Shown here: piece by piece, positions 3,906 through 53,910 of the stretch
How positions within the stretch are numbered: the first letter of the stretch is position 1
Layout of the letters: the number at the start of each line of letters is the position of its first letter
Assembly: GCA_013398955.1 (NCBI GenBank)
Contig: VWPU01000961.1
Coordinates: forward strand, 43,230-107,229
Length of the DNA stretch: 64,000 bases
Origin: Callaeas wilsoni
Lineage: Eukaryota > Chordata > Aves > Passeriformes > Callaeidae
Direction of reading: 5' to 3'
The notes under the pieces: generated by a model
What the model was told of the DNA's origin: nothing
Database searches by the model: none
Seen by the model: only the letters and a program-made list of their open reading frames with translations
Made by a program: the position numbers and the translations under genes

Positions 3906-4062
3906 CTACATTCTGCATTCTCTTGTCCAATAGTGTACGAGGATGGGAGAGACCAGATGAGTAAACCTCTCCAGCGGACAGCGAAATTTGCAGCCAGGGA
4001 GAGTGAGGGGGTAAGGCTCCCTCAAAGAATTATTCCGGTAGTACATTTCTATGGTGTATTGC
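3906..4062 (-). CDS. ACP3: ACP3-like exon 10: C-terminal end and stop
   Basis: One base completes Gly323, then 51 codons and a TAG stop (3906-3908): [51 protein letters not shown]. Human reads YFVEMYYRNETQHEPYPL and LPGCSPSCPLERF, with TEC near the end. The GC..RC cysteine pair and the terminal Cys are kept, and NNS (333-335) replaces the human NET sequon. The chain ends two residues after the Cys, without the hydrophilic tail of secreted human ACP3 or any membrane segment. The acceptor is ttgaaacag|G. Confidence 0.94.
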
Positions 4063-7000
4063 CTGTTTCAAAATACAGAAGGGTCAAAATAAAGTTAGGT
4101 ATGCAAATCCACGCAGCCTTTCCATGTTGCAGTTATCATACATGGGATCAAACTTTTAGCCAGCTTATTTGTCTGATTGCTAATATGGATATGATTTACT
4201 AATATAATTAGTACTCTGAAGAGAATGTTTTAAACATTGTGGGGTCAACACCAATTTGCATGTAGTTCGCTGCCTTTGTTAAGGAGTTAAATAGATTAAA
4301 AAGATGGAATAAAACCTCTCATAACTGTAATATGTATATACATGGTTTTCAGGCTTATTCTGCTACTGACTACTAAACTGAATCCAATTACAGTAATTAA
4401 AATTAATATGTAATATTTTCCTGAGTAGTGAACCTCATGTATCCACTTTAATTAGCCTGGGATATCAGAAAATTCCTTTTTAGGAAAAGTACCTATTAGC
4501 AGTATAGCTTGCAGATACTTGCCCATTTTTTTCCTGGTAGAGTTCAAAAAAATGACAGGCACTGTAAGGAGGCATTTTCCCATTGAAGACATTGAGTGCC
4601 ATCTGTAAGGCAGCAATGGTGGCTGCATGCTGTGAAAAGAAGAAACCTTTAATTAGAAGTCTATTGAAAATGATTGCATGAACCTATTATATAACAATAT
4701 TTCCAGCACATTATCTGTCCACTCAACATTGACATTACTTGTGTGGCCTCATTAATACTTGCCCTCTGCACTGTTGAGCAAATATTTTCCCTTTATGTCT
4801 GTATAAACTGAAGTGCTGCATGTGTAAAGTATACATATATGTAAATATTTAAGAAGTCTTAGTCACTTGCAGCTCTTACCAAAGCTAATAGGAGCTGTGA
4901 AAACATCTTTGGAAAAGAACTAGTGGTTTTGCCTGTTAAGTATTTGAGATCAGATCAGTAAGCTCTTTAGCTGATATATACCAAATAGGTCATGATACAA
5001 CTGCAGTTTAGAAACAGGAGCTTTTTACTGAAAGCAGTCCAAAATTTCCTCCTCCGTGCTCCAAATGAGAGCATTTGCACATTCTAAACAAAAATACAAG
5101 ATCACAATAGAGTAACTGCCTTCATAAGGCCTTCTAAAATAACTGTAACCTAATTATTTTCTTCTTTTTTTCCCATTTGCACTTGAAAAAGATACAGGAA
5201 GAAGGAGATTTTATTTTAAATTAACTTTGTGATCCAGGTTTAATAAAACATGAGGCATGGTTTTCCCAGTTCTCCGGTCAATCAAAACGTTATTACAATG
5301 AAAAAACCATGATATGAGGTGAAAAATGGAATACTTCAGGTTTCAAAGAAGTATATGATCATTAAAAAATTTTATAAACCCAAAGATATTTAAGGTTAAC
5401 CAAATAAAAAATGCTTGTAACTGTATTTCATGAAGGAAATAAAATTTCATGGCTTTCACTGCATTTAATAACTGAAGAAAGGAAACACAAGAGAAACAGA
5501 AAGCACTCACCGTGGAATACATAACCATTTTTTGCTGGTGTGAAGGCTTTCTAGCATCTGAGATATGCTTTAGAATAGTTTTTAAAAGAATACCTGAAAG
5601 AAAATGGGGAAGCAGTGACAATGAAAGAGATGCTTGTGTTAACATCTGTATTGATTGTTGCCATTTTAGCATTCTCTCACTAAATGCACCAGATTTATTC
5701 GATTGACTTAAACGATAATTTGTGCACAGCGCCTGGATTAGTAGTGACAGTATCTTTCAAATGAACAGTGGGCCTATTTTACTTCTGTGTAAAATGTTTT
5801 GGAGATCCCTAATAGCCTCAACAGCTTCAAACAGTGCATTCACAGCTACTTTGTGCCAGCAGAACAGTGCAAGAGCACAGTAATGAATACTACCCTGTTG
5901 TGTGTCTAGCTTGATTGATTTCCTGCTTTCCAGAGGAAAAAGAAAGAGCATATCCTCTCTACTCTGGGGCTTTATAAATTGTGTGGTTGTCTGTATTTTG
6001 TTAATGTTAACTGCTGAAAAGTTGTAAGACAATCTACTTGATTTAAATCAATGGCTGTGCTAGTATGTTAATATAAGGTTGGCATCTCAACAAATTAAAA
6101 TCCTAAAAGTAGAACTGTACCAGCTAGCAAATTAGACAGAATTAGTCTTTAGCTACTAGCACATTTTTAATAGCAATTGTTAGTAAAGCAGGGGCAGAGG
6201 TTTGAACTTTGTGCTGTTTTGCAAGTTGGAGCTTTGAAAAATGCAACAAATTGATTCATGCTTATATGTTTATTTATCTTCACAGCTCACAGATCATGAC
6301 TGTACATTGTCCATAAAAACCAAAAAGGAGGCTCAAAAGATGGCAGTGTATGAATGGAGGAGAATGAGTGATTAAAAAGGTATAAAATATTTTCAAATTT
6401 CAGCTACTATTTTCTGAGCAGAGTAAGGTTTAGAAGCAGTTCAGTAATCTCATTTTAGGACTCTCAGTAGTGCAATATGAAGACTGTTAGGCAACAAAGT
6501 CACCATTCTAGACATTACTACAAAAAACATTTTTTTTAAGTAAGTTACAGGTGGAGGCTTACACTAAGTTCAGACTTGATTCAATTCAACAGGAATCTGT
6601 ATGTTACCTTGAATTTCTTATACAGTGTAATCTAAATGATACTTCAATTATAATGTTAGATTAGGATATTCATGATTCATGTGTGCACCATCTCCCTCCC
6701 CATTAATCAAAATCTTTCAGTGCTGCCCACCAATACCTCCTTAATGACATCTTTCACCATTCTACTATGGAATCAGCAGCAATGTTTGTCATTTACCCTT
6801 TCTTCTTTCTCATCCTACTTTTGATTTTAAATGGGGTAAGAAGTCAGCTTACCTCCCTGCAAACGTGATTTTTGTATTTGTTTGTGGAACCCAAATTCCG
6901 CCTGCAGTAACAATTCTGAGAGATTTATCAACTTGGTCCTGACACCATGAGTAGCCCAAACAGGTAAAGTGTAATTGTTAATATCCTACAGTGAAGAAAG

Positions 7001-10000
7001 AAAACATGGTGATTTTCTTACTGATTCCTGCTGCTTACTGTTATTTATTCTGGCACAAAATGCTTCTCAGAACAAATTCTGAATGTTTCACTCCAGTAAC
7101 ATTTTCTCATTGTAATAAAATTATGACTATATTTTGCATTTAGACAGATGTAGCATTCCTATTTATAGAATCATAGTGCTTAAAAGAAATTTGAAGGGCA
7201 GTGTTTAGCAAGAAGAGGAAATAAAATACTAAAAATTATGCAAAAAGAAACTTGGTATTATTTATGTTGTCAGGTGAAAAAAAAATCACTATATGACTTT
7301 TTCAGTCATGTACTGGGATGTATCTTTACTGAAACAAATCCTATATAAACATCAGGATTTTAAGGACTGGTAGCTCTCAGTTGTAAGTGGAACACAGAGA
7401 TCAAGTAGGAATATGTATAGCTGTAGTAAGGATGTACCCAAGTATGGGGTAGAAGTATAAGGATGAGATAAAAATGAAACTCATACCTACTATGGTCTAT
7501 TGGATACTGTCACAGTCCTGAAGCTAAAGTGGAATGGATTAGTCTTTCCTTGGCGGTGCAGTCCAAGGTATATTAGTGGTCACAACTGAGAGAAGGAAAG
7601 ATACGCACAACACTCCCAGTTTGCACTACCCTGAATTCCTGTTTAAACAAGGTCGGTAACTTTCCTTTAGAGCAACGTAACCTTTGGACTGAGCTCACCA
7701 AAAGGACTGTTCTTGTAACAAGTGAGCTCAAAGGAAAATGTCAACTAATTTAAGGGTTTGTTTAAACAAGAAAACAATAAGAAGTTGCTAGGTTAAACCA
7801 GCTCAGATCACAATGTTATCCATTTCTCTTTTAACAAGTGTGATTTATGTCTTGAGGAAAGAATGCTATTTAAGACAGTCTGTAGGCAAGCAAATACCTC
7901 AGTTTCCAAGTTACCTGAAAGTCAGATGACACTTAGCTGAAAGTAACAAATACAGAGAGATGTATGCTACTGTAGTGTCATGAACTCTATTAAAAACCTA
8001 CGTAAGGACGCTCTCTCAGTACGCTTGAAAAATGAGAGGGGCTTTTATGGCAGATGTCTTAATTGATATCCCCAGAGTCCTCAGTCCATAGTATCAAAGA
8101 CCAAGGCTCATCAAATTTAACGCTAGAAGGAAAAACACAATTTTTTTTTTTTTTAAATTTCAGTGTTTAGCTAGATTCTTGATGGTAGCTGTGGGTTTTG
8201 CATATTTGTTTGGTGGCACAGGTTCTCAGTATGATTTAACTATTGAAATAGAAAGTTGTCATCCTGCATTTGCAAAACATGGAAGGGTGACCTCACTGAA
8301 ATTACAGTGAAATGTCCCAACATGTTTACATTTAATTTAACTTAAGGTCCTGGCTAACATTCTATTCAAGTCTGCTTTGACCAAAGTTGAACTTTTGCAA
8401 AAACTGCAGGAATGAAGGTAAACTCATTAGCCTCACATCCAAATATTACAAGTTGCTCCTGAAATCCACCTTAAAACTGCCTCACTAATATCCCAGTACT
8501 GATAACCAATTTATCATTAATATTTAAGTTTATAAATAGTTATGCATGAAAGTGTAGCAAAAGCTGCCTTCAAAAAGAACTTTTTAACACAAGACTCTGT
8601 AATTTTCAGTTGTGTCTGCTGAGGTAAGTCTAGACTTTGAAGTGGGACTTCTTGCTAAATTAAGGGCAGCCAGGATTTTTTCAAATTATGAAGTTTCCAG
8701 ACTGTAGGACCCAGATACCCATGCCAGTTTGACACCACAATACCCCTTTTGTTATAAAATCCGTGGGTTTTTTGTGATATGCCTGGTACCTTTGCTTAGA
8801 ACAAGCTCCCAAACTTGCACAAATAGCCATTTGTGTCATTCTAATGGCTGCTTAATTCCTGAGAATACTCCATCCACTACTGTCCATGTACAAATAATGA
8901 CTTCTCTTGCTTATACAATTTGCATAAAATATTCATGGAAAGATGCTTATGTTTCTTTGCCAGCAACATATTTTTTCTCTGTGTCTCTTCTAGTGGGGTC
9001 TGGCAGAGTTACAAGACAATTTTATCCAAAGGTGTGCTTTTACCTAATTCTTCATATGCAGTCACTGACTGGATCTTGAATATGAAAGATTAGTTTGTGT
9101 TCCTTATAGTGGGGGATGACCCACAGCAGCCTCACCCAGAAAGTGTTTGCAGGCTTTTCGGTTGTAAGTTTGATGTTAGGTGAGGGTTTCTGGGGAAGAA
9201 GCTGAAAAAAGTCTATGCTTAAAAAATTTTTGAAGCACAGATCTATGATCTTTTCATGCCTTAAAATAAAAAAATAAACCACAGAAAAATATCAGGTTGA
9301 AGGAAGTGTAGGAATTTCTATTGGACTTGAAGATCTTAAGGGTCTTTTCCAACCTAAATGATTCTATGATTCTATTTACCTCATACTGTAAAGTGTCAGA
9401 GAGCTTCCAAATCTTTTCAGTAGTCAACTTCTTCAATGGGTATCCTGTATGAGTGGCTAAAAACTTCAGAAATATCTGGAATACAAAAAAACCCAAACTT
9501 GTAGTACTGAGGGCCTTTTTACATGATTTCTACACACTGCCATACTAGTACATAGGAATTTTTAGAAAGAAGAGAGTCTTTGCACTTTGCACTTAAGAAA
9601 TGAACCATTGCCTAGATGTAAGAGAATTTGTCCTATTCATCTAGACAAGGTTGGTGATGTTAATTCAGATTTGAAGTATGGTGATTGTTTATGCTTGGTG
9701 GAAATGTTTAGAAGGAAGTAGAGGGAACACAGGTATATGAAGAAGTCTGGCAGAAATCCAAAAAGTGCTTAAAGGAAGTGTGATAAACAGAATTATTCTG
9801 ATATTGGTACTCAGGAGAAGGAGAGGTATGATGCAAATTTGGTAAAATGGAAATTGTAATTTATTTGCATATAATACCCTGATGCAGAGCCACAGATGGA
9901 TGATTGAAGTCAGTGGTGAAAGATAATAGAAAAACACTAGAGGTTCGTAGTGTCCTTTTGAATACATGTGTGAAGAAGAAGGTTGCAACAGAATAAATGT

Positions 10001-13000
10001 CATTGTATACTCATGCAAAGATTTTGATGCTGGAGAAAGAAAGGAAAGGATACCATATGGAGATAAGCACAAAACATAAGAGAACACCTACATTAAGATT
10101 TTGGGTGGGAAACATGAATAGGTACTTGAGGAAAACACTGAGACTGTTATAGAAATTCTGGGGAATTGAGCTGAGAAAACGAATCCGAACTCACATATAG
10201 GCAGAGATGTCATAGGAGTTGCTTCACATGGGAGTAAACAGAGAGAGGTATTGGAATAATTTGAGAGGCATTGGCACTGATTTTATCTGAGTTCTTGTTT
10301 TGTCTGGTCTCCTAGAAAGTAAGTTTTTGCAAGTAGGTCAATAATTTATCTTTTCTATGACTTGCCATTTTCAATTGTTGCGAATAGCCCAGTCCAGCTG
10401 AATCTGTAATGTAGTAATTGATTTTGGGTATGTTGTCTACAGCCACTGTTAAGATTAGAGGTCTGAAAGGAGCATATTAACTGCAGTTTTTAAAACCTAC
10501 CTGTTAGATGGTGTTGAAGAAGTGGTACACTTTAACTGGATTTCCAGAACTGAAAATACTTTACCTTATAGTGCTTGAATTGCCTTTGGAAATCCCTTGT
10601 TGCAAAGGTTTGTCTCAGAAGCTCCTTGTATTTTGGGCAGTGTGAGAAAGGGAGGTATAGCAACTGGAAAGAAAATTGCAAAACCCTAGTTAGACAAGGT
10701 GCATCTTGTTCTGCAATTCAATATACCCTTGCAGGATTGATGTTCTGATTGGCTGCACTAGTTAGGACAAGCTGAAAAATAATTTGGGAATGTAGTTTCA
10801 AGGATATTCATCTTCAGGACTCTAGGAGTCATACTGATGACTACGTACAAAATAATCTTTAAATGTTCAGAGGAGTAATAGCTGCAGTAGTTCAAAGTTA
10901 AAGGATTCATTTACACAAGATGAAATTTGTCCTTTGACAGAACACTAAGACAAGCCCTCATGAACTCCTTTGTTCTTAGCTTCTCCAGGGATGATTTCAT
11001 TCATTGTGTTGTCTTTCTTTAAACACACCATCACATTTTTACAACAAATTACCAAGCAGAAGCTGGACTCCAATAGGAGTCTTTGTGCATACTCAGCTGT
11101 ATTGAGTGTATTTAACACAGCTTCATTTAGTTCAGCTAAAATGTAGAAACTTGTGAACCTTCTGTAACTCGGCTTTGTCTTTCATTAATCTAAGACATAT
11201 GAAGGTTAAAGGTTACATGTGGCTGGAATAACTTAAGAACTTGTTATTTCATTTATGTAAGCTAAATTTTGTTTATTCTTGTTTTCTGTGTTAAATTTTA
11301 AACAAAAGTTAAAATTTGACACAGATATTATTAATGCTTTTCTCTAATGTTCTTTTTGTCCCTTTTCTAGTAATGTAGCTCCATCTATATAGTCCCAATG
11401 TTAAAAGAACTTTTAAAATAACTTGAGAGTTTTGAAGAGATAATTAGCTTGGAATGCTTCACAGCAGTTCCTCAATCTTTTTAGAAATACAATCTATCTA
11501 TTCCACAAGAAAGGAAAGTATTTGCGAATTATAGCCATAGGTTTATGAACAGGCATGACTTCAATAAATGACGGGCACTTGTTTTGTATTGTAGGATACA
11601 TGCGGTCCCAGGTTTAACCTGTATATGTGGTAAGGATGAATAAAGTTAAAACACAAATAGTTGAAAAAAGTATGAAAATTGTGCATGTGTTCATGACTTT
11701 ATGATTTGTTTGAATAAATTTACTTGCTCCCCTAGATGTGAATGAGGTGCAGCACCTGCTCGCTGAGTTTGCCATCTCTGTTGATACTGGCCAGGTATTC
11801 TTGACTGTCTGCTGGGATATCCCCACCTGTGACAGTGTCAGAAGCAGCTCCTGACTCTATGCCTGGCTGTGTGTGTGAAGAGGAAGACATGTCTCCATAT
11901 CTTCCATCTGCATGCTGTCATCATCCTGAGGTGAGAACCATTGCTCCATGACCTATCTAACCTGATTCCCTTATCATCACAGACTGTGTTAACTAGACTT
12001 GTAAAGACCACACAATTTATCTTGCATCACATGTGCAAACCTGCTCTCGCAAACTGGGACTCATACTGCACGCTCCTGATCTTCCCTAACTTTTTACCAT
12101 AGATTTTCCACACACAGGAGATTCCAGCTCCAGTCAGCTGCACGGCTTTCCCCTCTAGAACAAATATATGCGGGCTACAGAGCTGCTATGCACAGGATTC
12201 CTCACAACTCCAAAGTGAAGAGTTGAGGAAGGGAGATGAATAAATACATTGCCTTATGCACTCGTACTTAAAGCTCTGAGTCCTCCTTCCTTTTCGCTAT
12301 TACTTTTTTCACCAATCCTCAAAGTGACCTTCAAAGTGCATGAAAAACAAGCCTATAGCTCAATTCTCACCGTAATGTGAGTCCCAGAATGATTCTTTTG
12401 TCTTTTCTGTTGGCTGTGGACTAAGCAATATTGAAGCATTAGTGAGATTATGTTTCCTCTTCTCACACAAAGAAAGTCATGTTTGAATTGAATCTACTTC
12501 TACAGTGATTTACTCACATTATAGATTAACTCTTTTTCTCTATACCTAGTACTTCCATTTTTCTTCCTCTTTGTTAAGATCATGTCTCTGACATGTAAGT
12601 CCATTCCTGTGAGAATACTTGCCAATACTTCCATTCAGCCTGTTAGGCTTTTCTGCACAATATACTTTTCATTGACTTTACCGTGCACTTTTTGCTGCAC
12701 CTTCAGCCCATATCCTATGTACTTTACTAATGATTAAGGGAAAGCAGATGCCCCTAGTTTATACTCACATTATCATGTGACAGTGGCACTGTGTGAACTG
12801 GAATCGGCTGCCAAAGGATTTTGGGGTTCCAAATCTGTCCCTGTGTCGGTGGGTACAGTCCAGCAAGACTTGCCTGAGCACTCATAAGTGTATGATCACA
12901 GTCAGTGCTTTGAACATAAATCTGAAGGAAGAAGAAAAAAAAAGAAACATTTTGGAAGGTAATTTCTCCCATGAAGTTTACTTTATTTTCCTCTTGGAAG

Positions 13001-16000
13001 GAAAAAAAGGGGCTGGTACTGTGCTGCAGAAGTTGTCATTAAAATGGAGTGGCATGAAGAAGGACTATGAGAAAGAAGGAGGAGAGAGAAAGACTGAAGT
13101 TGGAATAAAATTTTGTTGGATGACTGAGCTGCAACATGGTAACATTTACCTGAGGAATCCTGGTAGACAGCATGAAATTGACTCTCTTTGGCCATCTAGG
13201 CTTTGGGACATCATATATGCACTGAAAAGCTGGAACCTAAATGAAAACTGAGTTGTATCTGCATTCCATGTGGAAGTGTAGCATTGGAGGTATTTGACAT
13301 AGATGCTGTCCCATACAGCAGTGAGGGGGCTGAACCTGATGTGCAGCCTAAAAAGCCTTTCACGTGGTTTTCAGTTGGCTATCAGTCTGAATAAAAGCTG
13401 ATCCACAGTTTCAGGGATACTTTGGAATTACATTGAATTCAATTGCTATTAAATTTTCTCCAACTGCACCAGGTTTAGACTCTTATGCATCCAGGAAGTC
13501 CCATTAACAAGCATTAAAAACATCTTCCTGCCCAGATCCAGTACTTGCCTCACACTGCTGGTATACAACGCTCAGGAAGTGAGAGTATCTCCTCCGCATG
13601 TACTGGCCAAGCTCATACTGTTGTTGTATGCCAAGCTGTAGAAGTAACACAAGAGCGTAAGAGGCTAAAGAAATGTGCTATCCATCCATTCCTACAACCA
13701 AAAAAAGAAAGCAGTAATAATTGATATCATTTTAATAAAGACCTTTTTCCTTTCCAAAGTGAAGTAGGAAAGAAGACATGAAAAAAAGTAGTGAAGTTGC
13801 TGCGTGTATGGTATTGGATAATGTTGGATGCAGTTCTGTATTTTGCTCTGTGGAAAGCTATGTGTATGTTTATCTGAGCTAGTGAGACTAAAAGCAGGCA
13901 TAGAGATGTTCCAACACCATCTGTCTAGTTTCTACTCTATTGCTGTCTCAGAGCTGATTAATGGGAGTGCAGACAGAGCAGCCACCTGTCCAGGATGTGA
14001 ATCCCATAGAGTGTCACTAGTGATTCCGTATGGAGGCTACAGTTTTAGCCTGGGCAAGATCTAGTTTTTCAGAATAGAAGACTTGAAGTAAAGGTCCTCC
14101 AAGCCTTTGGGCATTTTGCTGCAATAGTTAATTATTGAAACATTCAATTTTTGATTCTTGCCTGACTATGTTCCTAGCTTTTAGTCACTGAATCTTGTTA
14201 TACTTTTGAGTAACATTCACCATCACAGATCTTATTCACAGTTAAACAATAATCCATAAAATGGAGTCAAGTCACTTTATCTCTGTGTTAAATTAAACTG
14301 ATGACAATTCCCTACCTTCACAGCAAAATGGGTTTTTCAGTCCCAACATTTTAGTAGCTCTTAACTGAACATCTCTCAACTTATCTACATAATTTTGTGA
14401 ACATATGACATATGAATCACAGAATCATGGAATCAGTTAGGTTGAAAAAGACATCTGAGATCATTGAGTCCAACCTATTACCTAATGCCACCATGTCAAC
14501 TAGACCATGGGACTAAGTACCATTTCCAGTCTTTCCTTAAACACCCCCAGGGATGGTGACTCCACCACAATCGCACACAGTGTCCGTGTAATAGTCTCTA
14601 TATTGTAATCTTTTTACTTGTACCTGGTGTTTCCTGGCCTAAATTTAAATATATTCCACTTTGCTCATGTAAACATTACTGTAAACTGGGATCTCAAGTA
14701 CTGTGATTACTCATTCCTTCCTAAAGTAATTTTCTAAGTCATGGGATTAGAGGATAATTCAGGCTGAAAGGGGCCTCAGGGAGTCTCTAGTCCAACCTCC
14801 TGCTCAAAGCCGAGTCAGCTATGAGGTCAGACCAAGTTACTCAGGACCGACTGTGTGTGCATGTGATCACCTCTTTGTCTTGCTGGAATTGTGCATCCAG
14901 TTTCCTAGGGTGTAAGTTTGGTTTAGGTTTCTGCCCCAACTTGCCTAATATGCATGTTGTTAAGTTCTGACACCTGGGTCTTGAAGTCTTCCATGCCCTG
15001 GAGCAAGCTGGCATGGATTGCTGAACTCGCATAGTGTTTATATGGAATGATTGAGTCACAGCTGAGTTGGGAAGCTGGTCTGCTACTCCTGTTTCTTTAA
15101 GGGAGTTGACATGAGCAGAAACAGGCCTGATTTTGCTTTGGAGAACAGTTTTGTCCTGGAGATCAGGATCCCCACTCCTAAGAATGGTGAGGAAGAGCAA
15201 CCCCTCAGGCAGCTTGTTCTATTCTGATTTTGGTGAAGACCTGGCAAGTTCCCCTAGGAGAGAGACCCACTGGACATAAGGTATGTGTGCCTAACAGAGA
15301 GACATGCCTCACAGTCTGCCTCCACGTGCACTGCAGCCATTTATCTGGGACAACCAGACTTCTGGCACTTCTAAACTTCTTCTGGGAGACTGGCTGGTTC
15401 TGAGTGCTGGGCAAATAACTAGCAACTTTTTCCATCCAAATAACATATCTTGGGGAAAAAGGAATGAAGCACAAGCACACAGACACAGTGGGTCCTGCTG
15501 GTGGGAGGGGAGCACAAGTAGGGTTAAAACTACCCAGTGCCCAAATATTGCCTTACAGTCTGATAGTACAATTCACCCTTGGCATCATTGTAAAACTTGG
15601 CAGCTAATAGAAGTTACAGTCAAAGCAGGCACAGCATCAGTCGGATACAGTATCTGTGGTTGCTTCAGCTATTTCTGGTTACTACCAACAGCTGATTCCA
15701 CAAATGCCTGCACTAAAATAGCTGAGTTTTAAATCAGTTTTCCTGGGCATAGCATAAGAAAAATTTCTGCATGTACTGATCTTAACAATTTATGAGTAAG
15801 GAAGCACTTCTAATCAGCAGAGATTGAGGGAGGGGTGTGTGTGTATGCACTTCCACCACATTATGCTACTGATGGTTAAATCTTCCTGTATGGTCTCAGG
15901 TGAACTTATCACTCTCTACAACTCCCTAAAAGCTGATTGTAGTCAGGAGGGGGTTGATTTCTTCTCCCAGGCAACAACTGACAGAATGAGAGGACACAGT

Positions 16001-18084
16001 CTTAAGCTGTGCCAGGGGAAGTTTAGGTTAGACATCAACAAAAAAATTCACTGAAAGAGTGATTGGGCACTGGAGGTGGTGGAGTCTCTGTCCCTGGATG
16101 TGTTTAAGAAAAGACTGGACGTGGCACTCAGTGCCCATGGTTTAGTTGATGAGGAGGTGTTAGGTTAGATCATAGGCTGGACTTGATGATGTCAAAGGTC
16201 TTTTCCAACCTAGTTCATTGTGTGATTCTGTGGTTCTGTGAGATGGTCACCAGTGCCTGGCTCCTCCCAGAAGAACCTAGTATGCAAACTAGCATTTTTT
16301 AAATCAAAAAGCTCAACATATGCTGACACTGGACCAGAACAGGCTGACTCAGTTTCATTTAAAATTAATGAATGCTGTTGCTGTAGTTTCCTAATAAGTT
16401 CCTTGGCTGTCCTTAAGTGGCAACTTAATAAGAGCTTTCTCCAAGTGAAAGCAAAGTTCCAACCCCCAAATATCAACACACCATCTCCCAATATTTCAGT
16501 ATCTTGGCCCAGGTAAACAAACTCACCTTGGTAAGTTGACCATATCCCTGTTGCCTTGCAATTTCTTTGTGCTTATCAGTTGGAAAAAACTCCTGTGGGG
16601 TATGATCGCCATGGCGAAATACCTGATAAAATAGATTAAATTGCTTTTGTGTTACTGGTATTTTTTGTGGGGATTATAGCTAATTAGTGTAGTCACAAGG
16701 AATAGGTAGTGACAGTGAGTACTGTATCTGGCAGATGCTAAATATATTAATGGTGCTTGCCTTAAGTTGAGATAGCTACATTTCCTGTTTGATTTATTTA
16801 GACAAATATAACTTGTTCTTTTCTTGGCATTTGAGAATAAATTAGCTCAAATAAATTTTTGCAAGTTATAAAAACTACAGGATACCCTATTATATTTTAA
16901 AGAGGTTTTATGTATTTTAGGAGGTATAGACCATAATATTAAAAAAAAGGAAAACAAACAGAAGCATGTAAGTTATTTTGCAGATATACTTGAGCATTAG
17001 TATTTTGGTATGACTAAGTTGGAATCCAGAAGGAAAAAACCCAAACTATTACTCGAGATAACAGTTGTGTGGCTGACTGCCGTGAAGTTCTCCTACTTGG
17101 CAGAAATTAGCCTTAAAAAGTCATATGTTGGCTTTTTCATCATAAGAGGTGATAAAAGTGTTATCTAATATGTAAACACAGGCTAAGCTGTTACTCTGAA
17201 AACATTGAACCTGTTTTGGAATTTCACTTCAGATAAAAGATGTATTTATACAGGTACATTAGATTTTTCATTCCTGCGATGAATTCTTTGCTTCATATGC
17301 TTTGCAGCATAATTCCTGTAGATATGTGCCATATGATTCTAAAATTTTAACACCAGACTTTTTAAAAATTTCTTAATCCAAGCAGGGAGAAATGAAACCA
17401 AAAACTGCAGCACAAAAATTATATAAATGATTTACATGTGTCTGTCATGTTCAGAACAAGATTCAGGCTTTCTGCAAACAAATGGTACATTATAATCATT
17501 GCAAATAGCATTAGTTTCACAGCACTGGTTTCTGTGTTGTTTGTTCAATGTCGTTATACACTTGTTTGAGTTTCACATACTGAAAGTTATTTTTGCATGT
17601 TAATCCATTGAAACCACTGGAAAAGTGGAAACTCTTCCATGGTAGAGAGGGTTTTTGCACAGTTGGTATTTAGTTATGAAATCCTCTTTTACATTTTAAA
17701 ACAGAATCCTGTGTTATTTCTCTCTTAGTGCTATAAAATAAGCATTCTATATCCATCTAGAAAGTGAAGGTCATCTAGGAGTGCACAAAGGACACAAAAT
17801 TATAAAATCTCATTTAAAATTGAGGGGCTTTTTTGGACAATGCAATAATGAATCTTGAATATGCAGGAAACATTTAAATATTTGAAATGGTGCCCCCTGC
17901 TACCTACCCTAGAGTACAAGAAGAGTAGTAAGAGACAGGTTTTGAAGAAATTTCGTTTGCACATACTTACTAGCGACACAAACTTCAGTTTTCTTTTAGC
18001 TGTTGTTTGGTGAAGAAAAATGCAGAAAAGACAGAACATGAAACACAGACTCCAGATTCCACAGACCAGCTGCCTTGCTCTCAT
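3906..18084 (-). CDS. ACP3: ACP3-like (prostatic acid phosphatase-type) gene, 10 coding exons, active site altered
   Basis: Join, in transcript order: 18084-17971, 16622-16527, 13635-13549, 12921-12769, 10663-10565, 9475-9380, 6985-6853, 5593-5511, 4629-4523, 4062-3906. The lengths sum to 1125 nt, that is 374 codons plus a TAG stop, close to the 386 residues of human ACP3. The family dephosphorylates phosphomonoesters such as AMP and lysophosphatidic acid in secretions and at the cell surface. Seen here: signal peptide (residues 1-29), RHG motif at 41-43, a conserved block at 104-112, [12 protein letters not shown] at 137-148, the altered HD motif at 288-289, PLTLPGC at 341-347, and a C-terminal REC. 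Two of three human N-glycosylation sequons remain (N219, N333). Catalytic Arg15, Arg79 and Asp258 (human mature numbering) are replaced by His45, His109 and Ala289. PLTLPGC and WNPKILWQ point to ACP3 rather than lysosomal ACP2. Whether this is the only ACP3 of the species or a tandem paralogue cannot be told. Loss of activity is inferred. Confidence 0.94.
4523..4629 (-). CDS. ACP3: ACP3-like exon 9: HD motif changed to HA, with a GC donor site
   Basis: There are 35 codons plus two bases (residues 288-322 and two bases of Gly323): [17 protein letters not shown], then [18 protein letters not shown]. In human the exon begins HDTTVSGLQMALDVYNG. The catalytic-site His is kept, but the proton-donating Asp (Asp258) is Ala289, and the next Thr is Ala290. 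The acceptor is tttcacag|CAT. The donor is TGG|GCAAGT, a second GC-type donor. The split codon joins cleanly to exon 10. Confidence 0.94.
5511..5593 (-). CDS. ACP3: ACP3-like exon 8
   Basis: Two bases complete Gly260 and 27 codons follow (residues 261-287): [27 protein letters not shown]. The human exon reads VLVNEILNHMKRATQ and ends IMYSA. The acceptor is ttctttcag|GT and the donor ACG|GTGAGT, phase 0, just before the HD motif as in the family. Confidence 0.94.
6853..6985 (-). CDS. ACP3: ACP3-like exon 7
   Basis: There are 44 codons plus one base (residues 216-259 and the first base of Gly260): [44 protein letters not shown]. The human counterpart has NFTLPSWAT and KSRLQGG. The NYT sequon at 219-221 lies where human NFT is glycosylated. 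The acceptor cactgtag|GAT is short of pyrimidines but usable. The donor is GAG|GTAAGC, phase 1, matching the split Gly in human. Confidence 0.95.
9320..9375 (+). mobile_element. CR1 LINE fragment, 3' end, in ACP3-like intron 6
   Basis: The plus strand reads ggacttgaagatcttaaggg, then tcttttccaacct and two copies of gattctat. This is the standard avian CR1 3' end with its 8-bp tail. Only about 55 bp remain, so the copy is severely 5'-truncated. It is antisense to the gene and ends about five bases inside the exon 6 donor site. Confidence 0.85.
9380..9475 (-). CDS. ACP3: ACP3-like exon 6, next to a CR1 insertion
   Basis: There are 32 codons (residues 184-215): [20 protein letters not shown], then [12 protein letters not shown]. 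It aligns with the human block ending IWSKVYDPLYCE and with ACP2 ending VWNVYDTLFCE. The conserved Cys before the last Glu is Tyr214 here, so one family disulfide cannot form in the usual way. The acceptor is gtattccag|ATA. The donor is GAG|GTAAAT, and the following intron bases are already the tail of a CR1 fragment. Confidence 0.93.
10565..10663 (-). CDS. ACP3: ACP3-like exon 5
   Basis: There are 33 codons (residues 151-183), the human length: [19 protein letters not shown], then [14 protein letters not shown]. The human exon starts LLYLPFRNCPRF. The Cys159 that pairs with the C-terminal Cys in the human enzyme is present. The acceptor is ctttccag|TTG and the donor AAG|GTAAAG, phase 0. Confidence 0.94.
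12769..12921 (-). CDS. ACP3: ACP3-like exon 4: conserved substrate-pocket block with Arg79 changed to His
   Basis: There are 51 codons (residues 100-150), the human length, and this is the best-conserved exon: [13 protein letters not shown], then [19 protein letters not shown]. In human the first block reads IRSTDVDRTLMSA. The active-site Arg79 is His109 here, and the Arg of IRSTD is Gln103. Trp138 and His144, whose human counterparts are reported to matter for dimer formation, are kept. The acceptor is ccttcag|ATT and the donor AAT|GTGAGT, phase 0. Confidence 0.96.
13549..13635 (-). CDS. ACP3: ACP3-like exon 3, with a GC donor site
   Basis: There are 29 codons (residues 71-99): [17 protein letters not shown], then [12 protein letters not shown]. 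This aligns without gaps to the human LGMEQHYELGEYIRKRY segment. The human NES glycosylation sequon is absent, and C98 has no counterpart in human. The acceptor is ttctacag|CTT. The donor reads GAG|GCAAGT, a GC-type donor with otherwise perfect consensus, and no alternative GT keeps the length and frame. Confidence 0.94.
14410..14585 (-). mobile_element. CR1 LINE fragment in ACP3-like intron 2
   Basis: Reverse-orientation CR1 3' end: cacagaatcatggaatc tail, then ggttgaaaaagacatctgag, gagtccaacc, and further on agggatggtgactccaccac, all hallmarks of avian CR1. The element lies sense to the ACP3-like gene. The 5' border is blurred by divergence. Confidence 0.88.
14738..14845 (-). mobile_element. 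Second CR1 LINE fragment in ACP3-like intron 2
   Basis: The motifs ggctgaaaggggcctcaggg, ctagtccaacctcctgctc and a degenerate gttactcagg are the 3' region of a CR1 subfamily on the minus strand. It lacks the 8-bp tail and differs from the neighbour at 14410 in its gtccaacctcctgctc block, so it is probably a separate, older insertion. Confidence 0.8.
15905..16241 (+). mobile_element. CR1 LINE fragment, about 335 bp, in ACP3-like intron 2
   Basis: The longest repeat copy in the window. It runs from ctctacaactccctaaaagc through tcttctcccaggcaac, gaggacacagtcttaagctg, gtttaagaaaagactgga and ggtcttttccaacctag to the tail attctgtggttctgtg. This is the 3' end of avian CR1 on the plus strand, antisense to the gene. 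A small internal deletion removes the usual gggctgcccag block. Open frames crossing it are not genes. Confidence 0.92.
16527..16622 (-). CDS. ACP3: ACP3-like exon 2: RHG catalytic motif with Arg15 changed to His
   Basis: There are 32 codons (residues 39-70), exactly as in human ACP3. The exon opens [16 protein letters not shown] and ends GYGQLTK. The human motif is RHGDRSP: the nucleophile His (H42 here) and the first Arg (R41) are kept, but the second phosphate-binding Arg (Arg15 of the mature human enzyme) is His45. The acceptor is tttatcag|G and the donor AAG|GTGAGT, both phase 0. Confidence 0.95.
17971..18084 (-). CDS. ACP3: ACP3-like exon 1: start codon and signal peptide
   Basis: This exon encodes residues 1-38. 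The basic N-terminus MRAR is followed by a hydrophobic core ([16 protein letters not shown]) and a likely cleavage site after TTA at residue 29, so the mature chain should start KRKLKF. It aligns with the human leader and the mature start KELKFVTL. The start is supported by an in-frame TAG seven codons upstream (18103-18105) and by A at position -3. The donor is CTA|GTAAGT, phase 0, the same place as in human ACP3. Confidence 0.93.
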
Positions 18085-18144: not shown

Positions 18145-18153
18145 GTATATATG
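18145..18153 (-). promoter_or_regulatory. Candidate TATA box of the ACP3-like gene
   Basis: On the minus strand CATATATAC lies about 60 bases upstream of the ATG. A start site 25-30 bases further on (near 18120) would leave a short 5' leader of about 35 bases, free of upstream ATGs. Just upstream are a CCACCCC box (about 18162-18168) and an AGTTCA half-site resembling nuclear-receptor sites. The position fits a tissue-restricted TATA promoter; there is no CpG island. Confidence 0.55.
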
Positions 18154-37509: not shown

Positions 37510-37557
37510 CCTGCAACCATTCATAGCCTGCAACCATTCATAGCCTGCAACCATTCC
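37510..37557 (+). repeat. 17-bp tandem repeat, about 2.8 copies
   Basis: The unit cctgcaaccattcatag occurs twice in perfect tandem, followed by a partial third copy, cctgcaaccattcctg. The lack of divergence between copies suggests a recent duplication. Confidence 0.9.
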
Positions 37558-53379: not shown

Positions 53380-53910
53380 TGCAGAAGTGCCAGCTGCTCC
53401 CTAAAGGACAAGGACCTGAGGGCACTTCCTTCCCAGGACAGCAGGACAGAACCTCACAAGTCAGGGCCCATCCCACCATCCCAGAAGTGAGGCATCAGGC
53501 CATCCCAGTCCTGGGCATCAAGGATGGGATAGGATGGGATGGGATGGGATGGGATGGGATGGGATGGGATGGGATGGGATGGGATGGGATGGGAGGGGAG
53601 GGGAGGGGATGGGATGGGATGGGATGTGGGCCCAACTCAGTGGGGCCCTTGGCCAGCCAGGGCTGTGGGATGCCAGAGACCAGCTCTGCTGCTTCACTGC
53701 TGGGGCAGGGTCTGATGGTTCTGGGCATGCTGGTCAGTGGTCACAGTGAGCCAGAGACAGTCAAGGCTGGTGATGCCCTCAGGGCTTGGCTGTTACAGTG
53801 GGTGGCCTCCAACAACCCAGAAAGACTTCAGCAGCTGACCTGTGTGTGTCTAGAGAATGGCATACGGGAAATAACGGGCTCTTTCGTAGCTAATGATGAC
53901 CCTTGAGGAC
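53380..53910. other. GC-rich island around the GGGAT repeat
   Basis: This stretch is clearly richer in G+C than its neighbours, with many ccagg/cctgg motifs but few CpG. I recognise no exon, LTR or known repeat apart from the minisatellite. The 233-codon frame lacks any family resemblance outside the repeat and has no splice or Kozak support. Confidence 0.5.
53521..53626 (+). repeat. (GGGAT)n pentanucleotide minisatellite, about 21 units
   Basis: Units of GGGAT on the plus strand, with two early AGGAT variants and a central block of three GGGAG units. A period of five that never makes a stop lets a 233-codon frame (53205-53906) run through it as a GWDGM-type repeat, and a PSHPI-type frame on the other strand. 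Many closely spaced GGG runs make it a good G-quadruplex former. Confidence 0.95.

Follow-up and report, generated by a model that had tools for sequence, protein, structure and literature searches.

In human prostatic acid phosphatase (PAP), the product of a ten-exon ACP3 gene, His12 takes the phosphate and Asp258 gives the proton; catalysis is severely impaired when residues that correspond to Arg15, Arg79, His257 and Asp258 are substituted (passages of PMC3676848). The closest precedent for a relative that lacks catalytic residues comes from the rat flea, whose salivary proteins XcAP-1, XcAP-2 and XcAP-3 are secreted, acid phosphatase-like proteins without His12 and His257; they are inactive, bind amines and leukotrienes, and are of duplication origin according to their authors, and XcAP-1 also lacks strand 3, an element of the dimer in the rat enzyme (passages of PMC10728186). 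Here we describe an ACP3-type gene in a 64,000-nucleotide stretch of the genome of the bird Callaeas wilsoni (assembly GCA_013398955.1, contig VWPU01000961.1), in which three of six catalytic residues have been replaced. We consider it, with a probability of about 0.6, to be a tandem ACP3 duplicate kept for a non-catalytic role, as a binding protein of the oviduct or eggshell. The stretch, called the window below, covers contig positions 43230-107229 and reaches the contig end; the remaining contig sequence was examined as well. Positions are those of the window unless they are given as contig positions.

The gene lies on the minus strand from 18084 to 3906 (Table 1), and its ten exons splice into 375 codons including TAG (374 amino acids), with neither an indel nor an internal stop, as the initial annotation had claimed. 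In a Pfam scan of the predicted protein (E threshold 0.001), His_Phos_2 (PF00328) is the sole family, with residues 32-331 aligned to positions 1-353 of the 354 in the profile (E = 7.4e-31). Prostatic acid phosphatases in the PDB match it from residue 31/32 to 372/373 (8xj4_B, E = 6.5e-119; 1rpa_A, E = 2.6e-120), and with such E-values the frame is therefore not a product of chance. Chain 8gdl ("secreted salivary acid phosphatase"), which we take to be a structure from the flea XcAP work, is also among the PDB matches.

The RHG motif with the nucleophilic histidine is present as VFRHGD at residues 39-44. Aligned to the PDB prostatic acid phosphatases, the protein retains R41 (Arg11), H42 (His12) and H288 (His257), and has H45 in place of Arg15, H109 in place of Arg79 and A289 in place of Asp258; codons 41, 42, 45, 109, 288 and 289 read CGC, CAT, CAT, CAT, CAT and GCA. 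These are the three replacements and three retained residues that had been listed in the initial annotation, and both the alignment and the codons bear them out. Where active acid phosphatases have RHGxRxP, Arg79 and an HD pair, the window protein has RHGDHTP, His109 and HA. Because three of the four residues whose substitution severely impairs human PAP are changed, little turnover and weak phosphate binding are predicted, and crippled hydrolysis is a reasonable expectation from the sequence. The flea proteins differ in replacing His12 and His257 and in being 18-23% similar to human PAP (passages of PMC10728186), whereas the bird protein keeps both histidines and loses Arg15, Arg79 and Asp258. 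The listings and passages of the open-licence literature at hand contain no description of this catalytic-residue loss in birds.

With human and rat ACP3 (8xj4 and 1nd6; 1rpa) the window protein shares the family, 53% identity, the RHG histidine nucleophile, the WQPIPVH stretch, cysteines at the positions of human 129, 281, 315, 319 and 340, and N-glycosylation sequons at those of human 188 and 301. We take WQPIPVH to be a dimer contact in PAP, with Trp106 and His112 presumably the contacting residues. It differs from the mammalian proteins in the replacement of Arg15, Arg79, Asp258 and Cys183, in the loss of sequon 62 (a sequon at N236 is present), in its isoelectric point (pI) of 9.6, and in a stop codon that precedes the position of the membrane-exon donor. 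Identities over aligned residues are 52.4-52.7% for the window and tandem copies (the latter described below), 52.4-52.9% for window and human, 59.1-59.4% for tandem and human, and 47.6% for window and bird ACP2, so that the identity of the window copy is higher with human/rat ACP3 (52.4-52.7%) than with ACP2. The ACP2 of the same genome, named by similarity and used here as an outgroup, has the same family assignment and exon layout and retains Arg15, Arg79 and the HD pair. There are 167 columns identical in bird ACP2 and in human and rat PAP; the window protein keeps 125 of these and departs at 42, and the tandem copy keeps 139 and departs at 28. Among the residues that differ in the window copy are the three catalytic ones, the WP of WPQGFGQLT, Cys183 and the Thr beside Asp258. 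The idea that replacement of Cys183 had cost the protein a disulfide was dropped, as Cys183 and Cys281 are both free in human PAP (passages of PMC3676848). The mature window protein is strongly basic (pI 9.57, net charge +19, vs 7.75 and +1 for the tandem copy), and on the 331 columns common to five sequences the net charges are +14 for window, -3 for tandem, -5 for ACP2, -10 for human and -8 for rat.

The second ACP3 gene lies outside the window at contig 38034-20576, on the same strand and 9.1 kb beyond the stop of the window gene; its ten exons correspond to those of the window copy, and the intron phases are the same. All six catalytic residues are present (VFRHGDRTP, STDYDRTIMSA, SAHDTT), and this gene, active as far as residues tell, answers the call of the initial annotation for an active paralogue on adjacent sequence. 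At the Arg15 and Arg79 positions the tandem copy has CGA and CGC, and the window copy has CAT at both; each Arg to His step takes a G-to-A transition at a CpG, plus a third-position change unless the ancestral codon was CGT. The Asp to Ala replacement (GAC in the tandem copy, GCA in the window copy) requires a transversion. No third ACP3-like copy was recognized in a PF00328 genome scan, which gave 12 exon-level matches (one of them tandem exon 4) at a threshold that missed the window gene's own exons, so that diverged copies could escape it.

The tandem copy also has a candidate eleventh exon near contig 19746, which encodes a hydrophobic segment ending in RRRNNYQDI* and is in frame with exon 10 through several acceptors; with this putative transmembrane last exon, the protein would end in ..YLLYHYGHCRRRNNYQDI*. 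Such an exon is in keeping with the membrane splice form that PAP has in mammals (PMC10766772). A scan of the 3' side of the window copy for a membrane exon, which did not extend to splice sites, found similarly strong hydrophobic stretches at three places (near contig 42737, 44690 and 41348); the charged ending with a tyrosine that marks the tandem exon is present in none of them. Since the window gene stops before the donor and no tandem-like membrane ending is recognized 3' of it, a secreted form is most likely the only product of the window copy. The signal peptide reported in the initial annotation agrees with the hydrophobic N-terminus encoded by exon 1, its basis being hydrophobicity and not a predictor.

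The claim that all splice sites are usable holds if GC donors are allowed at introns 3 and 9, and fails under a GT-only rule. Both GC donors lie in a GCAAGT context, and all other donors in the window copy are GT. In intron 9, a GT four bases downstream of the GC donor would put exon 10 out of frame, and we considered a frameshifted pseudogene at exon 9/10 on this account. That model was dropped, as the GC donor is common to both copies (it follows 4523 in the window and contig 21324 in the tandem gene); because the tandem copy also has it, this is therefore an inherited GC-AG intron. ACP2 of the same genome has GT there. The GC donor of intron 3 is without a counterpart in the tandem copy, and so is new relative to it.

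Evidence for expression comes from the duck. In the shell gland of laying Putian ducks, RNA sequencing identified a "prostatic acid phosphatase-like" gene (ncbi_101805018, LOC101805018) among the seven picked for checking by quantitative PCR (passages of PMC6339300). The two primers used for it fall in window exon 4, 100 bp end to end, with mismatches at 1 and 0 of 20 bases, the sole difference being at a third codon position. The corresponding places in the tandem copy have 6 and 7 mismatches of 20 (14/20 and 13/20 matched), and no other site on the contig has fewer than 6. To judge from these matches (39/40 bases in window exon 4), the duck gene is very likely an orthologue of the window copy rather than of the six-residue copy. 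Available passages report this gene only as differentially expressed (PMC6339300, PMC10887599), with very low values in duck ovary (0.00 and 0.86; PMC10887599). At the protein level, a "prostatic acid phosphatase-like" protein makes up 0.29% of the zebra finch eggshell matrix by intensity-based absolute quantification and is low in chicken (passages of PMC4666066), and a table on the chicken eggshell membrane has YES for LOC428451 in both columns (passages of PMC6811977). A term search of the main text of a hen cuticle study finds no acid phosphatase named (PMC8586345). The suggestion in the initial annotation of an egg protein finds support in the duck shell-gland gene, whose primers fit the window copy; the eggshell protein reports come without copy assignment.

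Taken together, the window product is most likely a real, old and probably secreted pseudophosphatase, and an oviduct or eggshell protein. The proposed course is that ACP3 duplicated in tandem, and that one copy retained all six residues while the window copy lost three. The window protein would be secreted and folded as an acid phosphatase, with little or no phosphatase activity, two of the three phosphate-holding arginines and the proton-donating aspartate being gone. It would act by binding, either as a matrix component or as a binding protein secreted in the oviduct. Acidic molecules such as eggshell phosphoproteins could be partners of so basic a protein, small ligands may be bound in the manner of the flea proteins, and pairing with an intact ACP3 chain is a further possibility. 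Of this course, the gene, its residues and its neighbour are shown, as is, by way of the primers, transcription in the duck; secretion, inactivity, binding and presence in the eggshell are inferred.

Long-term constraint is indicated by comparison of the two copies. Pairwise maximum likelihood codon analysis (374 codons) gives 0.37 nonsynonymous (dN) and 1.75 synonymous (dS) substitutions per site, with a ratio (omega) of 0.21, and rejects omega = 1 (likelihood ratio test statistic, LRT, 96.8). In neutral simulations that start from the tandem copy, with 1000 copies at every level, none is stop-free at 0.2, at 0.4 or at 0.8 substitutions per site. Branch-wise codon fits were made with the ACP2 outgroup on 334 codons, with pooled or ACP3-pair codon frequencies. 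When dS is set equal on both tandem copies, omega on the window branch is 0.23 or 0.21, omega = 1 is rejected (LRT 66.6, 72.5), and the window and tandem values do not differ (p 0.36, 0.35). In a tree of five sequences, with ACP2 fixed as the root beforehand, the grouping of the window copy with the tandem copy has only 61% support, so that the duplication may be older or younger than the mammal-bird split. The window gene has very probably been constrained through most of its history, and this constraint likely persisted after loss of the catalytic residues. The proposal of selection for another role, made in the initial annotation, is partly supported by an intact frame at a dS of about 1.7 and a pairwise dN/dS of 0.21; the branch test is decisive only under equal dS, and with free branches omega = 1 is not rejected.

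Several points weigh against a catalytically dead protein retained for the egg. The duck primer sites exclude the catalytic codons, and hence are silent on duck substitutions. The zebra finch and chicken eggshell proteins may be the other copy, as the reports do not specify which; the turkey and quail columns in the zebra finch table are blank at this protein (passages of PMC4666066), and a term search of the main text of a turkey eggshell proteome finds no phosphatase named (PMC3766105). Residual activity is possible, since Arg11, His12 and His257 remain, and the two Arg to His changes need no selection, as they would be explicable by single CpG G-to-A transitions. For the basic charge, a codon-model simulation stopped at 160/342 amino acid differences reaches a +19 shift in 37 of 300 runs; selection for it is not significant, and we treat the charge as a property and not as proof. 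With free branches and pooled frequencies, the window dS falls to 0.04 and omega rises to 4.7; this fit does not reject omega = 1 (p = 0.66) and does reject a single omega for the two copies (p = 0.029). ACP3-pair frequencies give a window dS of 0.20 and omega of 0.97. The equal-dS assumption is itself marginal (p = 0.04 and 0.085).

The free fit would also suit a duplicate in early decay, in which selection was recently released in this species' lineage, the active site was lost first, and the frame is intact for lack of time. The window branch of the five-sequence tree is longer than the tandem one (0.60 vs 0.375), both Arg to His changes are of the transition type at CpG, the intron 3 GC donor is new, and neutral copies are still stop-free in 33.6% of simulations at 0.02 substitutions per site, 8.5% at 0.05 and 1.2% at 0.1. 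However, the low dS of the free fit accompanies an ACP2 outgroup that is far (dS > 2 on its branch) and GC-richer at third positions (0.58 vs 0.46 and 0.39), which weakens that fit. The Asp to Ala change is a transversion, no indel or stop has entered the window copy, both GC donors stand in a GCAAGT context, and the likely duck orthologue is transcribed. We consider recent decay unlikely.

It is also quite unlikely that the window gene encodes an altered but working phosphatase, slow or narrowly specific, in which phosphate goes to His12, the arginines have substitutes in His45 and His109 (protonated at acid pH), and the proton comes from water or another group. Such an enzyme would draw on the retained Arg11, His12 and His257, but a substitution corresponding to Arg15, Arg79 or Asp258 severely impairs human PAP (passages of PMC3676848), all three are changed here, and so are further positions identical in ACP2, human and rat, such as the WP of WPQGFGQLT. 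A sequencing or assembly error, or a model stitched from chance exons, is hardly credible, although a single assembly underlies the sequence: over their full length the ten exons can be aligned with human and rat PAP and with the tandem copy (52-53% identity), an error would have to affect three separate codons, each in a different exon, and the duck primers match the window copy.

A more specific form of the preferred reading, retention of the window copy for a non-catalytic role, may be sketched, although as a whole we regard it as a long shot. Here the duplicated bird PAP would have turned into a structural or ligand-binding egg protein; its pocket of four histidines (42, 45, 109 and 288), without the aspartate or the second and third arginines, may bind a metal or other ligand, and its basic surface would anchor it to acidic eggshell phosphoproteins. 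If true, this four-histidine egg protein would mean that a vertebrate had arrived at a counterpart of the flea pseudophosphatases through loss of different residues.

As to the surroundings, we presume from the human map that copine genes and DNAJC13 should neighbour ACP3; in the right part of the window and the left part of the contig the long reading frames did not yield, by reading, a gene that could be named. Intron 2 of the window gene, at about 16040-16240, contains what we take, from its likeness, to be a candidate CR1-type retrotransposon 3' end. Elsewhere in the window there are a GGATG tandem array at 53522-53626 (21 copies, 96% matches) and a 17-bp unit repeated 2.8 times at 37510-37556 (100% matches). 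An Rfam scan of the window gave zero matches at gathering scores.

Table 1. Features of the window ACP3 copy, in window coordinates and in order of transcription.
Feature	Position	Strand	Remarks
TATATA-like motif, candidate TATA box	18146..18152	-	upstream of start codon; from sequence reading
Exon 1	17971..18084	-	start codon; hydrophobic signal-like N-terminus; ends ..KFVSL; GT donor
Exon 2	16527..16622	-	VFRHGDHTP..; carries R41 (Arg11), H42 (His12), H45 (Arg15 replaced)
Codon 45, CAT (His), Arg15 position	16602..16604	-	
Exon 3	13549..13635	-	followed by GC donor (GCAAGT)
Exon 4	12769..12921	-	carries H109 (Arg79 replaced), WQPIPVH and both duck primer sites
Codon 109, CAT (His), Arg79 position	12892..12894	-	
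Duck primer "Prostatic acid phosphatase-like-F" site	12864..12883	-	19/20 bases
Duck primer "Prostatic acid phosphatase-like-R" site (reverse complement)	12784..12803	-	20/20 bases
Exon 5	10565..10663	-	
Exon 6	9380..9475	-	
Exon 7	6853..6985	-	phase 1 at end
Exon 8	5511..5593	-	ends ..MVMYST
Exon 9	4523..4629	-	begins H288 (His257) A289 (Asp258 replaced); phase 2 end; GC donor common to tandem copy
Codon 289, GCA (Ala), Asp258 position	4624..4626	-	
Exon 10	3906..4062	-	stop TAG; GT donor-like site directly past stop

Fleas already provide characterized pseudophosphatases from the histidine acid phosphatase family; a case in a vertebrate, in which other residues are gone, would be a variation on that theme. 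The window gene would be a vertebrate pseudophosphatase that adjoins a parent-like copy with all of its catalytic residues. The "prostatic acid phosphatase-like" genes in the duck and chicken lists carry no comment on the active site; if these genes share the substitutions, the lists describe a non-enzyme, and a concrete candidate protein of the eggshell becomes testable.

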